Virus record (IMG/VR): IMGVR_UViG_3300025626_000007
Coordinates: 41,045 to 105,044 of that record
DNA: 64,000 bases
From: a virus
Reading direction: 5' to 3' (one strand)
Notes under the pieces: model-generated
The model's database searches: none
Told to the model about the DNA's origin: nothing
Seen by the model: only the letters and a program-made list of their open reading frames with translations
In this document: one piece after another, positions 51,939 to 62,752 of the stretch
How the letters are laid out: each line of letters starts with the position of its first letter
How positions within the stretch are numbered: the stretch's first letter is position 1
Program-made: the position numbers and the translations under genes

Positions 51939-51967
51939 TACCTGTAAATTAAATTATGGAGCAATAC

Positions 51968-52906
51968 ATGAAAGATGAATTCTTATGGGTCGAGCGGTTT
52001 CGTCCACAGAAAGTATCAGACACTATCCTGTCGTCTGACCTAAAAGTAACATTCCAAAAGATCGTAGATGGTGGTGAACTACCTAACATGTTGTTCTCTG
52101 GTACTGCGGGTACTGGTAAGACGACTATCGCACGTGCCATGTGTGACGAACTTGGTCTTGACTATATTGTCATCAACGGATCTGAAGAGGGTAACATTGA
52201 TACTCTTCGTGGTAAGATCAAACAGTTTGCATCCTCGGTATCACTGTCCGGTGGTTACAAGGTTGTTATCCTAGATGAGGCTGACTATCTCAATCCTCAA
52301 TCTACCCAACCCGCTCTCCGTGGGTTTATCGAGGAGTTCTCTAATAACTGTCGGTTCATTCTGACATGTAACTTCAAGAACCGTGTAATCGAACCATTAC
52401 ACAGTCGTTGTTCTAATTATGAGTTTAACTTCTCTAAGAAGATTATGCAACAGTTGTGCGGTCAGTTTATGGTACGTGCACAGGATATTCTGGAAGGTGA
52501 GAATGTCAACTATAACAAAGATGTACTTGCACAGTTGATTATGAAACACGCACCGGACTGGAGACGTGTACTCAACGAACTACAACGACACAGTATCTCT
52601 GGTCAGTTGGAAACTACGTCTATTATCACTGACGCAAACTCAAACTACAGTCTTTTGTTCAAGGCACTGAAGGGTAAAGACTTTAAGAAGATGCGTGGAT
52701 GGGTTGTCAATAACATGGATGTAGAACCTGCGTCTATCTTCCGTGGTATATACGATGCAATGTCCGAGTATGTACAACCCCAATCGATTCCGCAACTGGT
52801 ATTGATTCTTGCTGATTATCAATACAAGAATTCTTTTGTTGCGGATCACGAACTAAATCTGGTCGCATGTATGACCGAAATTATGGCTAATGTAGAGGTG
52901 AAATGA
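51968..52906 (+). CDS. 44: clamp loader large subunit gp44
   Basis: 312 aa (T4 319) from ATG 51968, preferred because TGGAG lies six bases upstream; ATG 51956 would add four residues. Walker A GTAGTGKTT, Walker B VVILDEADYL and the sensor-1 region FILTCNFKNRVIEPLHSRC (SRC arginine-finger motif) identify an AAA+ clamp loader. It opens gp45 with gp62 to load it on primed DNA. In T4 gp62 follows directly; here three genes come between. Confidence 0.94.
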   Translation: MKDEFLWVERFRPQKVSDTILSSDLKVTFQKIVDGGELPNMLFSGTAGTGKTTIARAMCDELGLDYIVINGSEEGNIDTLRGKIKQFASSVSLSGGYKVVILDEADYLNPQSTQPALRGFIEEFSNNCRFILTCNFKNRVIEPLHSRCSNYEFNFSKKIMQQLCGQFMVRAQDILEGENVNYNKDVLAQLIMKHAPDWRRVLNELQRHSISGQLETTSIITDANSNYSLLFKALKGKDFKKMRGWVVNNMDVEPASIFRGIYDAMSEYVQPQSIPQLVLILADYQYKNSFVADHELNLVACMTEIMANVEVK

Positions 52907-53707: not shown

Positions 53708-54354
53708 TGATTAATGATATTTACGAGATGACTCCGGCAGACAATGTACTGTATTTTCCTAATAACATAGATGTTAGGATATGTCCTAAAAATGGTATGT
53801 CTTCCGTGAAAGAGGCTCTTCGTAGATCTTTGGCTTCTAGAGCTCCTCTGGGACTCGTGGATAGAGTTTTATCGGTGAAGAAACACGCAGATCAATTCGA
53901 TATCCCCTTCAGAAAAGGTTCTTATCGCATTGCTATAAGACGCGATCCGATTGATAGATTCAAATCTGCGTGTGAATTCATTCAATCCGCACGTGCTTTC
54001 TACATTAAAAATGGCAGAGATTTACCAGATATATCACTACAGATTGATCGAGTTATTGATGATATGGAACGGGGTTTGGTGAAAAATAGTCACTTCTATA
54101 CACAGTCTTGGTACATGGGTCATCCCGATGATTATGATATGGTTTATCATATTAGCGAGATACCGAAACTTCTTGACTTCCTCCAAGAAGCCTGTACAAT
54201 AGAACGTGACATTAGTGGATTACATGAAAACCGAACTACAATGAAATTATATAATGATGCGATATCACCAGAACATCTGGTGAAACTTCGCAACTTTTAC
54301 TTGAAGGATTACAAAAATGGCTGGTGCAAACAAGAAGACCGTCTCCCCGTTTGA
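53695..54354 (+). CDS. sulfotransferase-like protein
   Basis: 219 aa from ATG 53695 (GGAA seven bases upstream); ATG 53680 is also in frame. CPKNGMSS (30-37) resembles the 5'-phosphosulfate loop of PAPS-dependent sulfotransferases, and IRRDPIDRFKSAC (81-93) the 3'-phosphate site. Such proteins transfer sulfate to sugars or other acceptors. They are known as accessory genes in marine phages. Overlaps the dCMP deaminase by 13 bases and gp62 by 38 bases. Confidence 0.7.
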   Translation: MSNIMINDIYEMTPADNVLYFPNNIDVRICPKNGMSSVKEALRRSLASRAPLGLVDRVLSVKKHADQFDIPFRKGSYRIAIRRDPIDRFKSACEFIQSARAFYIKNGRDLPDISLQIDRVIDDMERGLVKNSHFYTQSWYMGHPDDYDMVYHISEIPKLLDFLQEACTIERDISGLHENRTTMKLYNDAISPEHLVKLRNFYLKDYKNGWCKQEDRLPV

Positions 54355-54712
54355 TTTTTTACAAAGCATAAACCACTCGAAGATAGATATATATGAGGGT
54401 AACGAGAAGGGTTATGTCCCTTTCGTTATCAATCGCAGTTTGTCGTACTTCCCCGACACAGTTGCACTGGCGAATGAGATGAATCGGTATCACCATATCG
54501 ATAGTAAGTTACAATATCAATTTCTTATAAATATAGTTAGGAAACGAAAACGGTTTTCTAAATGGGTAAAACCTGAAATAGAAAATGATATTGAATTGGT
54601 GAAAGAGTATTATGGATATAGCAATGATAAAGCGCGTCAAGTCCTACCGTTACTCTCCGCCACACAACTAACTATTATAAAAGATAAGGTGAATAAAGGT
54701 GGAAGAAAATAA
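54317..54712 (+). CDS. 62: clamp loader small subunit gp62
   Basis: 131 aa, shorter than T4 gp62 (187). PFDFLQSINHSK, VINRSLSYFPDTVALANEMN (T4 has NALSQFPECMPAVYAMN) and RKRKRFSKWVKP (T4 RGKRYGKWAK) are diagnostic. It has no ATPase motif, as expected. Works with gp44 in a 4:1 complex in T4. Separation from gp44 by three accessory genes is unusual. Confidence 0.85.
   Translation: MAGANKKTVSPFDFLQSINHSKIDIYEGNEKGYVPFVINRSLSYFPDTVALANEMNRYHHIDSKLQYQFLINIVRKRKRFSKWVKPEIENDIELVKEYYGYSNDKARQVLPLLSATQLTIIKDKVNKGGRK
54536..54543 (+). promoter_or_regulatory. late promoter-like TATAAATA inside gp62
   Basis: Exact TATAAATA within the gp62 reading frame, about 195 bases upstream of regA. It could give late transcription of regA and the oxygenase behind it, or be chance. 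Confidence 0.3.
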
Positions 54713-54737
54713 TATTGTAGAATGGAACTCTGGGTTG

Positions 54738-55109
54738 ATGTTAGAAATTATCCTAGCAGAACCAGATGACTTTTTGAAAGTCAAGGAAACTCTCACACGT
54801 ATTGGTATCGCCTCCAGACGTGATAATAAACTTTTCCAGTCCTGTCATATACTACACAAACAGGGAAGATATTTTATTGTACACTTCAAAGAACTCTTTA
54901 TGTTAGACGGTAAGAAGTCTAATCTAGAAACTGGAGATGTACAACGAAGAAATACAATCGCAACTTTACTGCAAGACTGGGGTCTGGTAGAGATCCACAA
55001 TAAAGAAGTTGCAAAAGACTGTGCGCCTATGCGTACAATCAAGATTATTGGATTTAAAGATAAAGACCAGTGGGAGCTTTGTCCTAAGTATAATATTGGA
55101 AATAAGTGA
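54738..55109 (+). CDS. regA: translational repressor RegA
   Basis: 123 aa from ATG 54738 (T4 122), chosen because MLEIILAEPDDFLKVKETLTRIGIA aligns from residue 1 with T4 RegA; a GTG at 54699, overlapping the gp62 stop region, would add 13 residues. FQSCHILHKQGRYFIVHFKE and LLQDWGLVEI are nearly identical to T4. It binds start regions of early mRNAs and shuts off their translation. Confidence 0.92.
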   Translation: MLEIILAEPDDFLKVKETLTRIGIASRRDNKLFQSCHILHKQGRYFIVHFKELFMLDGKKSNLETGDVQRRNTIATLLQDWGLVEIHNKEVAKDCAPMRTIKIIGFKDKDQWELCPKYNIGNK

Positions 55110-55639: not shown

Positions 55640-55909
55640 ATGCGGTATGATATTTTTGCATAGCCTCTATCAAGAGTATGCGTTTATATACATATATACG
55701 TAATGAAATAATTCATTATATAATTAAACAGAGGTTAGTAAAAGTTATGGAAAGGTCACGATCTGATAAAATATCAGAGAGATTAGGAATGACTATAGTC
55801 AGTTTAGCAAGTGCAATTACGTTCTATATAACATTTAGTGCACTGATGGTATAAAAAGAAAAACGGGTGAGGTCATGGGACTTTGCCCCAACCTTTAAGG
55901 AAATTTGTC
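55640..55909 (+). other. AT-rich gap holding one tiny reading frame
   Basis: 270 bases between the cupin oxygenase and the glycosyltransferase. Contains the 35-codon membrane peptide gene at 55747. A small dyad AATGAA/TTCATT lies near 55703-55718. No convincing promoter with 16-18 base spacing, and no terminator, were found. Confidence 0.6.
55747..55854 (+). CDS. 35-aa predicted membrane peptide
   Basis: ATG at 55747 to TAA at 55852-55854. The first 13 residues are charged (MERSRSDKISERLG) and the rest is one hydrophobic segment (MTIVSLASAITFYITFSAL), long enough to cross a membrane. GAGG lies 11 bases upstream, a little far. Small membrane peptides are common early phage proteins that act on host envelope proteins; the function here is unknown. 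Confidence 0.5.
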   Translation: MERSRSDKISERLGMTIVSLASAITFYITFSALMV

Positions 55910-56722
55910 ATGAACCTGATCTATCAATATTGGGATGGTGAAGTAAGAGAATCATGTCGTGCCGGTGTTATGGCCATGCAAGAATACGCAGAACGTATTG
56001 GTGCAGAGTACATCTTCGAAGAGAACCCTCAGTTTCTCAAAAATCATTTTGGTTACAACTTTGGTAACTACTCTCCCCACTACGGTGCATTCAAACCTAT
56101 CTACGATGAATCCTTCGACAAGTATGATAAGATTCTATTTGCAGATACTGATGTCTTTCCGGTAGAAGGTCTAGAGGCAAACATCTTTGACGAATTTACT
56201 GGTGAGATTGGTATCTGTACAGAACCAGAACAACCACGTATTCGTACTATTACCGGTGGTCGCATCACTCACGAACAAGACGAACGTTTCGCTGCGTTAT
56301 GTAAGAATATGTTCGGAACGGACTTACCTAGAAATTCATATGGTATTGATGTCTTCAATACTGGAATGGTCTTGTATTCAAAAGAAGGACGTGTGAAGGC
56401 ACGGGAGACTTGGTTAGATCCTAAAAGATATGTTGAGTTAGTTCGTCAAATGGGATTAGACTCGTTCTATACTTGTGATCAACCATACCTACATGCAATG
56501 ATGTTTGTACACGACTTTGAAGTACAACGTATGGATAATGGGTGGAACTCTTATATTCATTACAGTAGATATAAAGGTGTGGATGGAAGAGAACTCCATG
56601 ACTGGAGAGATGATAACACCAAGTTTGTACACGTGCAGTTTGCAGGTGCAGATAACCTAGACGCAGAGACCCATCACCGTATTGTGAACCTTCCTCAAGA
56701 AAAATGGAATCTCCCTAGTTGA
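55910..56722 (+). CDS. GT-A type glycosyltransferase-like protein
   Basis: 270 aa from ATG 55910, which has AAGGA eight bases upstream; TTG 55883 is in frame but unlikely. The N-terminus MNLIYQYWDGEVRES and the DxD motif ILFADTDVFP (D79, D81) fit GT8/GT-A enzymes; IDVFNTGMVLYSKEG and CDQPYLHAMM follow as in the family. It overlaps the next glycosyltransferase by four bases, so they are made together. The acceptor could be host LPS or a phage component. Confidence 0.65.
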   Translation: MNLIYQYWDGEVRESCRAGVMAMQEYAERIGAEYIFEENPQFLKNHFGYNFGNYSPHYGAFKPIYDESFDKYDKILFADTDVFPVEGLEANIFDEFTGEIGICTEPEQPRIRTITGGRITHEQDERFAALCKNMFGTDLPRNSYGIDVFNTGMVLYSKEGRVKARETWLDPKRYVELVRQMGLDSFYTCDQPYLHAMMFVHDFEVQRMDNGWNSYIHYSRYKGVDGRELHDWRDDNTKFVHVQFAGADNLDAETHHRIVNLPQEKWNLPS

Positions 56723-57522
56723 AGGCATATCAGATAGTAATAAAGGGTGATAAAGTATCCGAGGAGTACGCACGTATCTCTCGTGAATCTTTTCAGCCTG
56801 CAATTGACGCGGGTATCATCGATGAGATAATAACCTTTGATGCGATCACTCCAGACTCTGTAGATTTTGAAGAACATTTGTCAAGATATAATTGGCAAAC
56901 TTCTTTAATGCAGGCTGATCTATATGGTAGTGCCCCTGATGACCATTCTCCTACCGAGAAGGCAGGAATGTGTTCTCATTGGGAACTTATGCGCATGGCG
57001 TCCGAGTCTGATGAGAGATTCTTAGTATTGGAACATGATACCTTTTTCATAGAAGAATACTTAGATGTGTTGAAATCTATAATTAAGTTTATTGAAGAAA
57101 TGGATGTCTTGTATGGAAACATTGGTTTGTTTATGGGGTGTTATACCTTGGAGAAGGAAACCGCTGCATGGCAATACGATATGTTGACCCAAGGTAACTT
57201 CCCTATTAACTGTGGCCCATATTGCACACTACAGAGATTATATTCGACATACACTACACGTGTATTAAAATATGAAAATTATAGAGGTCGTGAGACAACT
57301 CTTGTGCATCCTTGGCACGGGTGTGACACTCTACATTTTGGTCGAAACATCCAAAAACCCTTCAACAAAAGGGATCCCAATATTACATTCAATCCATGGA
57401 GAACACCTACTACTCAGGTCATATCTAAGAAACTTTGTGTTACCCAAGATCATCACGGGTACAATCAAAAATACATAGATGCACCTTGGACTCGTCATCA
57501 CTATTTTCATATAATAGATTGA
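56719..57522 (+). CDS. glycosyltransferase family 25-like protein
   Basis: 267 aa, starting at TTG 56719 in a TTGA overlap with the previous stop. EKAGMCSHWEL (80-90) and FLVLEHDTFF (101-110) match the GT25 pattern (galactosyltransferases of LPS synthesis: G-x-x-x-SH and LE-D-D). The second Asp of the usual EDD is replaced (LEHD). Probably acts in the same glycan pathway as its upstream partner. Confidence 0.6.
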   Translation: MKAYQIVIKGDKVSEEYARISRESFQPAIDAGIIDEIITFDAITPDSVDFEEHLSRYNWQTSLMQADLYGSAPDDHSPTEKAGMCSHWELMRMASESDERFLVLEHDTFFIEEYLDVLKSIIKFIEEMDVLYGNIGLFMGCYTLEKETAAWQYDMLTQGNFPINCGPYCTLQRLYSTYTTRVLKYENYRGRETTLVHPWHGCDTLHFGRNIQKPFNKRDPNITFNPWRTPTTQVISKKLCVTQDHHGYNQKYIDAPWTRHHYFHIID

Positions 57523-57547
57523 CAAACTCCTCGTAATAGTATATAAT
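57519..57547 (+). promoter_or_regulatory. sigma-70 promoter of the DruA-like gene
   Basis: TTGACA overlapping the stop of the GT25-like gene, 17 bases, TATAAT; all perfect. Confidence 0.88.
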
Positions 57548-57570
57548 GGTTACATTGAGATGAGGAATTT

Positions 57571-58707
57571 ATGATACTAACTAAAGAAGATACACACTAC
57601 GCAGCAAACGTCTTTACCGAGTTCTTTTCGAACTTCGACCGTATTGATGACTATATGCGACAAATCAAGATGGAACGCATGAAGACGTTCCCTACGGGTC
57701 TTCTTGGTATGGGCCCCGAAGATGACCTATTCGATGACTTTGACATGCACCCCAATGACATGGAGTTTGTCATCGGTGATTGTCCACAGAACCAGTTTAT
57801 GCAGTACATGGAGATTGTTACTTCCGCCCCTGTAGAATCTAGTATTCCGGGCAAACAGATGTTGAAGATCGTCAAGGAGAAGAACTCTGGTAAGATCTTC
57901 GGTATGATTCGATTCGGTTCTCCGACAATCAACTCACGTCCTCGTAATGAATGGTTGGGTAATCCTCTGGACTCGTACAATCCCGCAGTGATGAAAAGAT
58001 TCAACGACTCTGTGATTATGTCGTTTAACATAATCCCCGTGCAGCCCGCAGCGTTCAATACTTTAGGTGGTAAACTACTTGCGGGTATTTGTTGTTCTCA
58101 CCAAATGAGAAAAGAAATCAATAAACGATATGGTTCTAACATAGCAATGATGGAGACCACATCACTATATGGGTCATCTACGTCTGCAAGTATGTATGAC
58201 GGTATGCGTCCATTCCTACGTTTTAATGGTTTGACAGACTCAAACTTCGCCCCACTGATCAACGATGATAACTTCCGTAGACTGAACGATTGGTTCAAAG
58301 AACGGAACGGTGGTGATTACTTGGTACCTGCTGACGCATCTTCTCGTAAGTTGAAGACGCAGACCAAGATGGTATCCATTATCAAAACCTCTCTCAAGCA
58401 ATATGATATGGATGGTTATGCGAAGTTCTGTCAGACCTTTAAAGATGCGAAGGGTTTGACCGAGAAGAAACGTTCCTTCTTCTCTACCTATGGTTATGAG
58501 GCACAGTCTGTTAAGGACTATCTAAACCTCAAGACCGATGAACTCAAACCCGCAGAGAACTTTGACCGATTCGAGATGGAGAACATCGTATCTTGGTGGC
58601 GCAAGAAGGCATCTAAGAGATTCGAACAGGTCAAGGCAGATGGTCGTCTACGTACTAAACTAGAAACGTGGAATACAAATGCGGATGAAATTGACATTAT
58701 TCGTTAA
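57571..58707 (+). CDS. DUF4338/DruA-like protein
   Basis: 378 aa with TGAGGA upstream of the ATG. The central part follows the DUF4338 order as I know it: GKIFGMIRFGSPT (about 106-118), RPRNEWLGNP (about 123), a long conserved block FNIIPVQPAAFNTLGGKLLAGICC (about 150), MRKEINKRYGSNIAMMETTSLYGSS and YDGMRPFLRFNGLT. DruA is the signature protein of the Druantia antiphage system, and DUF4338 also has a GNAT-like fold. The C-terminal 150 residues are helical and basic, without a known domain. Own promoter, set between glycosyltransferases and the DUF262 gene. The activity is unknown even for DruA. Confidence 0.55.
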   Translation: MILTKEDTHYAANVFTEFFSNFDRIDDYMRQIKMERMKTFPTGLLGMGPEDDLFDDFDMHPNDMEFVIGDCPQNQFMQYMEIVTSAPVESSIPGKQMLKIVKEKNSGKIFGMIRFGSPTINSRPRNEWLGNPLDSYNPAVMKRFNDSVIMSFNIIPVQPAAFNTLGGKLLAGICCSHQMRKEINKRYGSNIAMMETTSLYGSSTSASMYDGMRPFLRFNGLTDSNFAPLINDDNFRRLNDWFKERNGGDYLVPADASSRKLKTQTKMVSIIKTSLKQYDMDGYAKFCQTFKDAKGLTEKKRSFFSTYGYEAQSVKDYLNLKTDELKPAENFDRFEMENIVSWWRKKASKRFEQVKADGRLRTKLETWNTNADEIDIIR

Positions 58708-58834: not shown

Positions 58835-60190
58835 ATGAAAAATGTAACATACAAGTCTGTAGAATCAAAAACTTCAAACATTACTCTTGGTGCATACAAG
58901 AAGATGATTGATACGGTCTATGCTGATCTTAATTGTCAGTCGGTGACTCGATGGGAAGTACAGAATAAGCAATCATTCTTGGTTTCTCTTATTCTGAATA
59001 CTGCACCATCCAAGTTCATCCTTGCGCATGTGAAGAGTTGTTACAATTCCGCTGAGATTTCAAATGACAAAAAGTCCATGGAATATTTCACACAGTTCCT
59101 AAGTACATGTGACTACTTGAACCTCGACTCTAACAACCGCACTGTTACGATAGGCGAGTTTGTTGATGATAAGTTTGGTCTTCCTCTAGGGAACTATGTT
59201 ATCGGTGATGAGGTTTACACCATAACTAAAGACACCTGCAACTATTCTACACTTCCTACTGGTATGAAGTGTATCCTAGATTCGCGTAAATTGACTCTAG
59301 AGATTTACTTGAACGTCAATCAAGAAGACATTACTCGTTTGTTCTTAGTTGTTAATAGTGGTGTTGCGTTGAATGCGCCAGAATTGAGAAACCCGATTAT
59401 ATCTAATGTTGCGGAGGAAATCCGCAGTCTTGCTACAAAACACACTAAGACTTTCGTTAAGAATGTATTTTCACAAAAAGAAATTAACAGACGTAAAGTT
59501 GATGACTACTTATCTGGTCTTTTCATGATTTACATCGATGGACTGCAAAGTAAAATTACCGCCAAGTCTTTAGAAGAAATGTATTATAACGAGAATGCTA
59601 ACAAGTTAGTCAACAAGTTCTCTCGCGAGATGGATCGTTTCTTGAAAATTGTCGGTAAGAACATTTCCATCTTTAAACGTGAAAACGGATTGTTGGATTT
59701 GTTTGTGATCTACCTAGAACAGATCCGAGGTGGAAAGCGTATGATTGAACCAGAAACTTTCATTAAAGATTATATCGATGTTCAGATTGATCTGATGAAA
59801 GATAAGACCGAATACTCATACAATGAGAACGGTCGTTCTGCAAATTTCTCTGAGTTGTTGCGTTCACGTGAGATTCGTTTTAACAATCTACGTAATAAGT
59901 TAATCTCTGAAAAGTTTGATGCGTCTAAATATTTCGTACAGTTAGATTCTCGTAGAGGTGGAACTGCCGAAGAAAAACTTATTGCTGCAAAAGATCAGGG
60001 ATGGATAACTCCCGAAGGTGTAGAAATCCCATTAGAAGATGTCCTATCAACTGACTTCGAAATTGGTCACATCAAACCGTATGCTGATGGCGGCAAAACT
60101 AACCAAGACAACTTTGTGATACAAACCAAAGAAGATAACCGAAAACTGGGTAAGAATCCCGTGGTCATAGGGGATCTTGTTTCGTCATGA
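58835..60190 (+). CDS. DUF262-like plus HNH nuclease-like protein
   Basis: 451 aa. The N-terminal 200 residues follow DUF262 layout: SVTRWEVQNKQSFLVSLI (36-53), a degenerate DGQQR motif LDSNNRTVTI (97-106), and RLFLVVNSGVALNAPELRN near 170. The C-terminus (about 405-442) has TDFEIGHIKPYADGGKTNQDN plus KEDNRKLGKNP, an HNH-type fold with His near 411. This combination resembles DUF262 restriction systems such as GmrSD and BrxU, which cut modified DNA. The key QQ of DGQQR is changed to NN, so the NTPase half may be altered. Own promoter and terminator. A phage-encoded weapon against other phages or a host-DNA nuclease are possibilities. Confidence 0.6.
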   Translation: MKNVTYKSVESKTSNITLGAYKKMIDTVYADLNCQSVTRWEVQNKQSFLVSLILNTAPSKFILAHVKSCYNSAEISNDKKSMEYFTQFLSTCDYLNLDSNNRTVTIGEFVDDKFGLPLGNYVIGDEVYTITKDTCNYSTLPTGMKCILDSRKLTLEIYLNVNQEDITRLFLVVNSGVALNAPELRNPIISNVAEEIRSLATKHTKTFVKNVFSQKEINRRKVDDYLSGLFMIYIDGLQSKITAKSLEEMYYNENANKLVNKFSREMDRFLKIVGKNISIFKRENGLLDLFVIYLEQIRGGKRMIEPETFIKDYIDVQIDLMKDKTEYSYNENGRSANFSELLRSREIRFNNLRNKLISEKFDASKYFVQLDSRRGGTAEEKLIAAKDQGWITPEGVEIPLEDVLSTDFEIGHIKPYADGGKTNQDNFVIQTKEDNRKLGKNPVVIGDLVSS

Positions 60191-60262: not shown

Positions 60263-62752
60263 ATGTCCAATTTTTATACATCGGTTGTCCGTTTTGGCAA
60301 CAAACTTCTGTACCGTGGTTTCGAGAACGGCAAAGAAGTAAAACGCAGAATCCCATTCAAACCAACTCTTTTTATGTCCGGTACCGCAGAACAATCTGAT
60401 GGTTGGACTACACTTGACGGTCTACCCGTACAACCAGTAACCTTTGACTCTATGACAGAGGCGAAGGACTTTGACAAACGTTACGAACATGTCTCCAACT
60501 TTACTATTGCAGGCAATACTAATTATGTTGCCCAATTCCTCGGAGAAGTCTTCCCTGATAAGATTGACTATGACCGTAGTCTCATCAAGACTGCGAACAT
60601 CGATATCGAGGTTTTCTCTCAGGACGGATTCCCTACTCCTGGCGCGGCTGCATATCCTGTTACCGCAATCACTATGCGTCAAGACTGTGGTACGTACTGG
60701 GTCTGGGGTTGTCAAGACTATACAGTATCCCGTGATGACGTACTCTATATCAAATGCGACAACGAACTAGACCTACTTCGTAAGTTTGTCCGACAGTTCG
60801 AACAGTACGCACCCAATATTATTACTGGTTGGAACACACGATTCTTTGATATTCCGTATCTAGTCAATCGTATGGTTAAACTCCTCGGTGACGATACCAT
60901 GGCAAAACGCATGTCTCCGTGGGGTCTTATCCGTGAACGCAATACTACTATCAATGGTAAACCCAACCAAGAGTTTGTCCTTGAGGGTATCGAACAACTC
61001 GATTACCTTGAGGTCTTCAAGAAGTTCACCTACAATACTCTGGGTCAACAAGAATCCTATCGACTGGATCATATTGCCCATGTAGTACTGGGTGAACGCA
61101 AACTATCCTATGAAGAACATGGTTCTCTGTTTGCCCTGTATGAGAATGACTTCCAGAAGTTCATTGACTATAACATCAAAGACGTTGAGTTGGTACATCT
61201 CCTCGATGTTAAACTTGATTTGATTTCATTAATTCTCACCATGGCCTACAAGGCGGGTGTGAACTATAATGATACTCTGGGTACGACTGCTATCTGGGAC
61301 ACCATCATCTACCGACTTCTGAATAAGAACAAGGTTGCGGTTCCTAAGAAGATTGAGAAACCCAAGACCGCATATCCTGGCGGTTACGTGAAAGACCCAC
61401 AGGTTGGTTCGCACGACTGGGTAACCTCATTCGATTTGGCATCTCTGTATCCTAACATCATTGTACAATACAATATGTCACCCGAGACGGTAATGGACGG
61501 ATTCGTTAGCAATGTCTCGGTCGATAAGTTTCTGGACGGTTCGATTGACCTGACTGACCAGAATCTAGAATATTCTCTTGCACCTACTGGTGTTAGATTC
61601 ACCCAAGATAGAGAAGGTGTGATTCCCATAATCATTAAACAGTATTACTCGGAACGTAGAGTAATCAAGAAGAAGATGTTGGAATGTCAACAGGAGATGC
61701 AGACCAACCCATCTAAAACTCTAGAGTATACCATAACTTCTCTGAATAATCAACAGATGGCAATTAAGATTCTTATGAATTCACTTTATGGTGCCCTTGG
61801 GAATCGTTGGTTCAGATATTTCGACCAAAGAGTTGCAGAGTCCATTACTCTTGCTGGTCAACTTGCAATCAAATGGGCAGAGAGAGCAGTAAACAATGAA
61901 ATGCAAAAACTTCTTAACACGGATGAAGACTACGTTGTGGCAATTGATACCGACTCTGTTTATCTTCGTATGGGGGATCTCGTTGATAAGTTTTCTCCTA
62001 GTAATCCGGTAAAGTTTCTCGACAAGATCTGTTCGGAACACTTCGAGAAACTCCTTGTAAAGTCTTATGCGGATATGGCACTAGCGACCAATGCCTATGA
62101 GAATCGCATGGAGATGGAACGGGAGGTAATCGCAGACCGTGGTATCTGGATGGCCAAGAAACGTTACATCCTGAACGTGCATAATAACGAGGGTGTTCAG
62201 TACGCAGAACCCAAACTCAAGATGATGGGTATCGAGGCAATCAAGTCTAGTACTCCGCAGGTCGTCCGTGACAAGTTCAAGGAGATCTTTCGGGTCATCG
62301 TAGAAGGTACCGAAGTAGATACACAAAAGTACATTCGAGACTTTAAGTCCCATTTTAAGACCTTACCGCCCGAAGCGGTTTCGTTCCCTCGGGGTGTATC
62401 GGATGTGACCAAATGGTCTGACCGTAAGACGGTGTACAAGAAAGGCACTCCTATCCATGTTCGTGGTGCGTTGATGTTCAACAAAGCACTCAAGGAAAGT
62501 TCTCTGACCAAACGGTACGAGACTATCAAGAATGGTGAGAAGATCAAGTTTTGTTACCTGAAGATGCCCAATCCAATCGGTGAGAATGTGATCTCCTATC
62601 CACTGAACCTTCCCCGTGAACTGGGACTGGATAAGTATATCAATTATGATATGATGTTCAACAAAACATTCCTTGACCCACTCACTCCCATTCTGGATGC
62701 GGTTGGTTGGGATTCTGAACCTCAGGCGTCACTAGAGGATTTCTTTGGTTGA
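60263..62752 (+). CDS. 43: DNA polymerase gp43 (family B)
   Basis: 829 aa (T4 898). Exonuclease motif [12 protein letters not shown] (D114, E116); polymerase motif [13 protein letters not shown] near 388, motif [14 protein letters not shown] near 501 and motif [10 protein letters not shown] near 560. The C-terminus SLEDFFG is a clamp-binding type tail comparable with the end of gp55 here. No intein or split is seen. It is the replicative polymerase, tethered to gp45. Confidence 0.96.

Follow-up and report, generated by a model that had tools for sequence, protein, structure and literature searches.

The gene at positions 57571-58707 (plus strand) encodes a 378-aa protein that is genuinely related to DruA (DUF4338), a defence protein of bacteria, and for which an AlphaFold model predicts a GNAT-type fold. 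We consider it reasonably probable that this DruA-like protein is an acyl-CoA-dependent DNA base-modifying enzyme, probably acting on adenine, that marks phage DNA during replication. The residence of the gene in the replisome cluster, together with the presence of a methylase in the same place in related phages, suggests that the protein chemically marks the DNA of the phage itself and does not serve as a defence system. The window, by which we mean the whole stretch of 64,000 nucleotides that was analyzed, corresponds to positions 41045-105044 of a 105,044-base IMG/VR virus record (G000), which may itself be a fragment. The record can be assigned to a T4-like phage because it contains gp45, gp44, gp62, regA, gp43 and a primase gene; a search of its 105 kb for a psbA-type gene, a marker of cyanobacterial hosts, returned none.

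The initial annotation had described an open reading frame with these boundaries and with its own consensus promoter, and both descriptions held. A sigma-70-type promoter (TTGACA-N17-TATAAT, agreeing with the consensus at 12/12 positions) lies directly 5' of the gene at 57519-57547, and a Shine-Dalgarno-like GAGGA can be read from the sequence at 57562-57566, both on the plus strand. The plus strand of the 105-kb record contains 10 perfect promoters of this type against 0.05 expected, and such promoters are found just 5' of gp45, gp44, the DruA-like gene and the primase gene. A near-perfect promoter is also kept 5' of homologues that lie in other gene contexts (for example in loci L008, L010-L016, L079, L081, L084 and L156). 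Early production of the protein, as the annotation had it, would be consistent with such a promoter. Purifying selection on the gene is strong, with a dN/dS of approximately 0.05 in the comparison with locus L004 and of 0.06, at a dS near saturation, in the comparison with L007.

Assignment to the DruA/DUF4338 family, also proposed in the initial annotation, proved correct: similarity to the Pfam profile PF14236 is significant (E 5e-9), the score of 36.2 bits exceeds the curated cut-off of 27, and the core residues of the family are shared, with the single-sequence match spanning only positions 67-181 of 297. The PADLOC DruA profile matches the protein at E 4e-6 and phrog_19197, a family of unknown function, matches it over its full length at E 1e-147, while nothing meaningful was matched in NCBIfam and sequence searches of the PDB returned no relative of known structure. 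A tblastn search identified 31 phage records with relatives, and in 30 of them the match spans no less than 80% of the query, with an identity of 42-52% (46.6% over the full length for S-PRM1); these records belong to T4-like phages of Synechococcus, the pelagiphage HTVC008M and two single-cell marine viruses, and no record named as a Prochlorococcus phage was among the phage records matched. Related gp44 genes occur in 513 phage records, of which 461 carry Synechococcus, Cyanophage or Prochlorococcus in their names, and comparison of this number with the 31 records above indicates that the DruA-like gene is accessory. In IMG/VR, at least 599 stretches encode relatives of the protein. In a bacterial genome, one locus (L177:33-2051) encodes a transposase, with its DNA-binding and DDE domains, to which a DUF4338 domain of the short type is fused.

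The relationship to DruA itself was also seen in profile-profile comparison, where the phage family was aligned with a profile of six full-length Druantia-type DruA proteins at E 1.8e-12 over 182 columns; the phage-family profile also recovered full-length DruA proteins from a small local set at 1e-11 to 1e-9. One of the loci compared, L063 from P. putida pKF715A, is a type I Druantia locus in which the profiles of DruA, B, C, D and E all match. The most conserved parts of the phage family are GxIRxGSPxIN..RN, WLG, FxIxPxQPxxxNxLGGKLL, KYG..ETTSLYG and YDGM, among which are the segments (GMIRFGS, WLG, YDGM and others) on which the family had first been recognized. The GSPTINSRPRN motif (residues 116-126; 57916-57948, plus strand) is near-invariant in 54 family members and aligns with GDPVFNLGVRD of DruA, and the ETTSLYG...S.YDG motif (residues 195-211; 58153-58203, plus strand), in which E195-G201, S207 and Y209-G211 are invariant, is the aligned counterpart of TTSSMGRSSVYNRL in DruA. 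Examples of positions that are invariant in both the phage family and DruA are G111, R125, P159, L165, G167, K168, L169, Y187, S198, G201, Y209, G220 and T222.

The phylogeny of phage and bacterial proteins that the annotation had called for gave two separate clades on long branches. The proteins of T4-like phages form one clade (support 94/96 in IQ-TREE, or 96/98 when L162 is left out), and the Druantia-type DruA proteins form another (100/100) on a long stem, in an unrooted tree that carries a long-branch warning. A type I Druantia operon has DruB, DruC, DruD and DruE alongside DruA. Profiles of DruB, DruC and DruE had zero matches in the 105-kb record and in five relatives, with the positive control matched, and the DruA-like gene is therefore not a Druantia system.

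In most viral loci examined the DruA-like gene resides in the replisome gene cluster. Within the window, the genes for the gp44 clamp-loader subunit (51956-52906; phrog_168, E 1e-112), the gp62 clamp-loader subunit (54317-54712; phrog_225, E 1e-43), the RegA translational repressor (54699-55109; PF01818, E 1e-43) and the gp43 DNA polymerase (60263-62752; phrog_262, E 4e-301) are all on the plus strand, and the DruA-like gene lies between regA and gp43. Its place inside the replisome module varies among loci: in most of the cyanophages examined, S-B68 being an exception, it is flanked by gp44 and gp62 and 4-base overlaps are frequent, and in HTVC008M it is 3' of gp43. In 66 of 140 IMG/VR loci with a full-length DruA-like gene, gp43, gp44 or gp62 is no more than 300 bp away from it; when the count is limited to loci flanked by 3 kb or more on each side, one of the three is present in 39 of 45, and in all but one of these the distance is at most 4 kb.

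Other neighbors are less constant. Directly 3' of the DruA-like gene is a 451-aa gene (58835-60190, plus strand) with a C-terminal HNH nuclease motif, for which E 5e-4 was the best HNH-family match among five members of the family. In some relatives it adjoins the DruA-like gene, but many loci with that gene lack it, which means that the two are not obligatory partners; its product is possibly a modification-linked nuclease. A role as a DUF262/GmrSD-type partner is at most tentative, because its similarity to a DUF262 plasmid protein is weak (E 7e-3), its own model is of low confidence (pLDDT 50) and neither PADLOC nor the DUF262 Pfam profile matched it. Directly 5' of the DruA-like gene, at 55883-57522, are two glycosyltransferase-like genes (GT8-like and GT25-like, with weak Pfam scores), and the pair is retained in several relatives. 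Pelagiphages carry a second DUF4338 type (L197:2974-4116 in HTVC008M, L068:5551-6849 in Mosig and L090:2606-3994), located near gp46, peptidase and CobS genes and resembling the DruA model of Pfam more closely (E 2e-22 and 6e-18); HTVC008M carries both types and Mosig only the second.

The gp44-gp62 slot was examined for what it holds when the DruA-like gene is missing. A gene for a D12 N6-adenine DNA methyltransferase occupies it in P-SSM4, two S-RIM14 isolates, S-RS29 and S-CAM1, none of which has the DruA-like gene, and neither gene is in the slot in ACG-2014f or in phages of the HTVC008M type. The ACG-2014f record (L206) has two D12 methylase genes elsewhere, at record positions 128762-129493 and 133467-134219. 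Because the phages first compared had been chosen partly after the methylase label was seen, slot content was tested on IMG/VR loci that were seeded with gp44 and fetched regardless of what the slot contained. With seeds from T4-like cyanophages the slot held the methylase in 142 cases, the DruA-like gene in 20, neither in 7 and both in 0 (Fisher p 2e-20), and the S-SSM7 seed alone gave 30, 17, 2 and 0, respectively (p 3e-11), both p-values being overstated since the fragments are related and not phylogenetically independent. The gp44 tree calls for approximately seven switches from one state to the other, and strong branches force three or more of them. Other slot genes co-occur with either the DruA-like gene or the methylase, so the exclusion is not simply a matter of limited room, and allelic replacement at one site could be part of its cause. 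At the level of whole records, the D12 methylase is absent from 10 of 11 phages with the DruA-like gene (a set including two partial contigs and one record with only the second pelagiphage DUF4338 type) and present in 6/6 of the phages examined that are without it (p 6e-4, for phages partly chosen by label). S-SCSM2R carries both genes, at different sites.

The AlphaFold model of the protein (pLDDT 90, pTM 0.85) accords with the fold of the GNAT superfamily, and DUF4338 has independently been named a GNAT domain (PMC10853773). The best PDB structure matches of the model are nearly all GNAT-type acyltransferases, although no single match is strong (the lowest E is 7.7e-3, and 7byy has a probability of 0.99). 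Giant-virus proteins from Faunusvirus, Yasminevirus and Dasosvirus have the same fold at E 9.5e-15 to 1.2e-8. In GNAT proteins the beta4-alpha3 segment is the place where acyl-CoA binds; the predicted equivalent here, Q-P...N.LGGKLL (residues 148-174; 58012-58092, plus strand), is defined by the model, with a strand at 148-156 and a helix at 166-174, and by conservation. N163, L165, G166, G167, K168 and L169 are invariant in the phage family, the segment aligns with LLGGKL of DruA, and the canonical GNAT motif Q/R-x-x-G-x-G/A is replaced by Q-P-x-x-x-N-x-L-G-G-K-L-L.

Since the leading PDB match is a tRNA(Met) cytidine acetyltransferase, followed by a bacterial GNAT toxin, the protein might instead acylate tRNA or rRNA, in the manner of TmcA or the tRNA-acetylating GNAT toxins, and so steer translation during infection. 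We regard this as unlikely: the E-values are weak, many unrelated GNATs score alike, and a position among the replisome genes and the alternation with a DNA methylase both speak for DNA. Somewhat less probable still is a takeover factor that acetylates a host or phage protein such as RNA polymerase or a replisome subunit; the predicted GNAT-type fold, the early-type promoter and the precedent of Rac, a phage GNAT with host RNA polymerase as its target (PMC7824862), would agree with such a role, which leaves the alternation with an adenine methyltransferase unexplained.

Among viral structures the matches of the model include Mom (probability 1.00, E 1.5e-3). Mom of phage Mu (PF25680) is a DNA-adenine modifier. 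Short DUF4338 proteins are related to Mom at E 6.6e-7 in hhalign, through the motif D...G..Y.A[AS]N[FW]...G, and the phage family is related to the short DUF4338 proteins at E only 3e-4 in profile comparison. Direct comparison of the phage family with Mom by hhalign gave E 0.57, that of DruA with Mom was likewise non-significant, and the Pfam Mom profile did not match the window protein at E 1; direct membership in the Mom family was therefore excluded, and the link runs via the short DUF4338 proteins. From the Mom motif D...G..Y.A[SA]N, the phage/DruA branch retains the Tyr and has replaced the Asp and A-S-N, so its chemistry may differ; the His-Tyr conserved in Mom and the short DUF4338 proteins is absent from it. 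The loss of the Mom-type residues and of the canonical GNAT CoA motif would suit a replisome accessory that retained the fold to bind DNA or sense its modification, with no catalysis. This is as improbable, in our estimate, as the acetylation of a protein, since the invariant or near-invariant K168, E195-T197, Y209 and D210 and the GGKLL segment resemble a preserved active site. Lastly, the defence roles offered in the initial annotation, whose homology, phage-borne location and promoter stood, are the least likely: defence against other phages, or a decoy or counter-defence against host Druantia, draws on the homology to DruA, but does not explain residence in the replisome cluster or alternation with an adenine methyltransferase, and is opposed by the lack of DruB, DruC and DruE profile matches and by the fact that the phage proteins form a conserved clade of their own whose genes stay with those for replication.

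For the DruA-like protein we thus favor DNA base modification, inferring an enzymatic activity, a DNA substrate, an adenine target and a protective purpose. The GNAT-fold DruA/DUF4338 enzyme would modify bases, most likely adenines, in the DNA of the phage itself, with acyl-CoA or a similar compound as donor and in step with phage replication, and the mark would shield progeny DNA from host nucleases or label the DNA as self; in related phages the D12 N6-adenine methyltransferase would do the same job. A broader and more tentative proposal is that T4-like marine phages draw two interchangeable DNA marks from one replisome slot, either D12 adenine methylation or an undescribed, bulkier modification by a DruA-family GNAT, and that by extension the DruA of Druantia may modify DNA, marking self or target. 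To our knowledge, DruA has no established biochemical activity. A stand-alone phage branch of the family, located among replication genes and swapping with an adenine methylase, provides a testable prediction of DNA base modification for DUF4338, and the virion DNA of cultured phages with the gene is open to direct analysis.

A DruA-like structure has already been described for Synechococcus phages, with S-PRM1 as the example (TM-score 0.73 to DruA; PMC12774648), so that the DruA likeness as such is not new. The proteins of that Phold paper belong to the same family as ours, and the passages found in it give no gene context, Mom link, alternation with an adenine methylase or function for them; searches of the literature that combined cyanophage with DruA, or with an adenine methylase and the clamp loader, had no result. 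What is new here is the predicted GNAT-type fold, the link to Mom via short DUF4338 proteins, the residence in the replisome cluster, the alternation with the D12 methylase and the absence of DruB, DruC and DruE matches. Compared with known systems, the DruA of type I Druantia has a domain homologous to the phage protein, with invariant positions common to both, whereas the phage gene stands alone, forms its own clade and can be aligned only over the core region. Mom of phage Mu has the same kind of fold according to the structure search and is related through the short DUF4338 proteins, but it shows no direct profile match and its conserved motif has been lost from the phage protein. The D12 methyltransferase of T4-like cyanophages (P-SSM4 dam, PF02086) occupies the same gp44-gp62 slot and replaces the DruA-like gene in relatives, although the two proteins belong to unrelated families.
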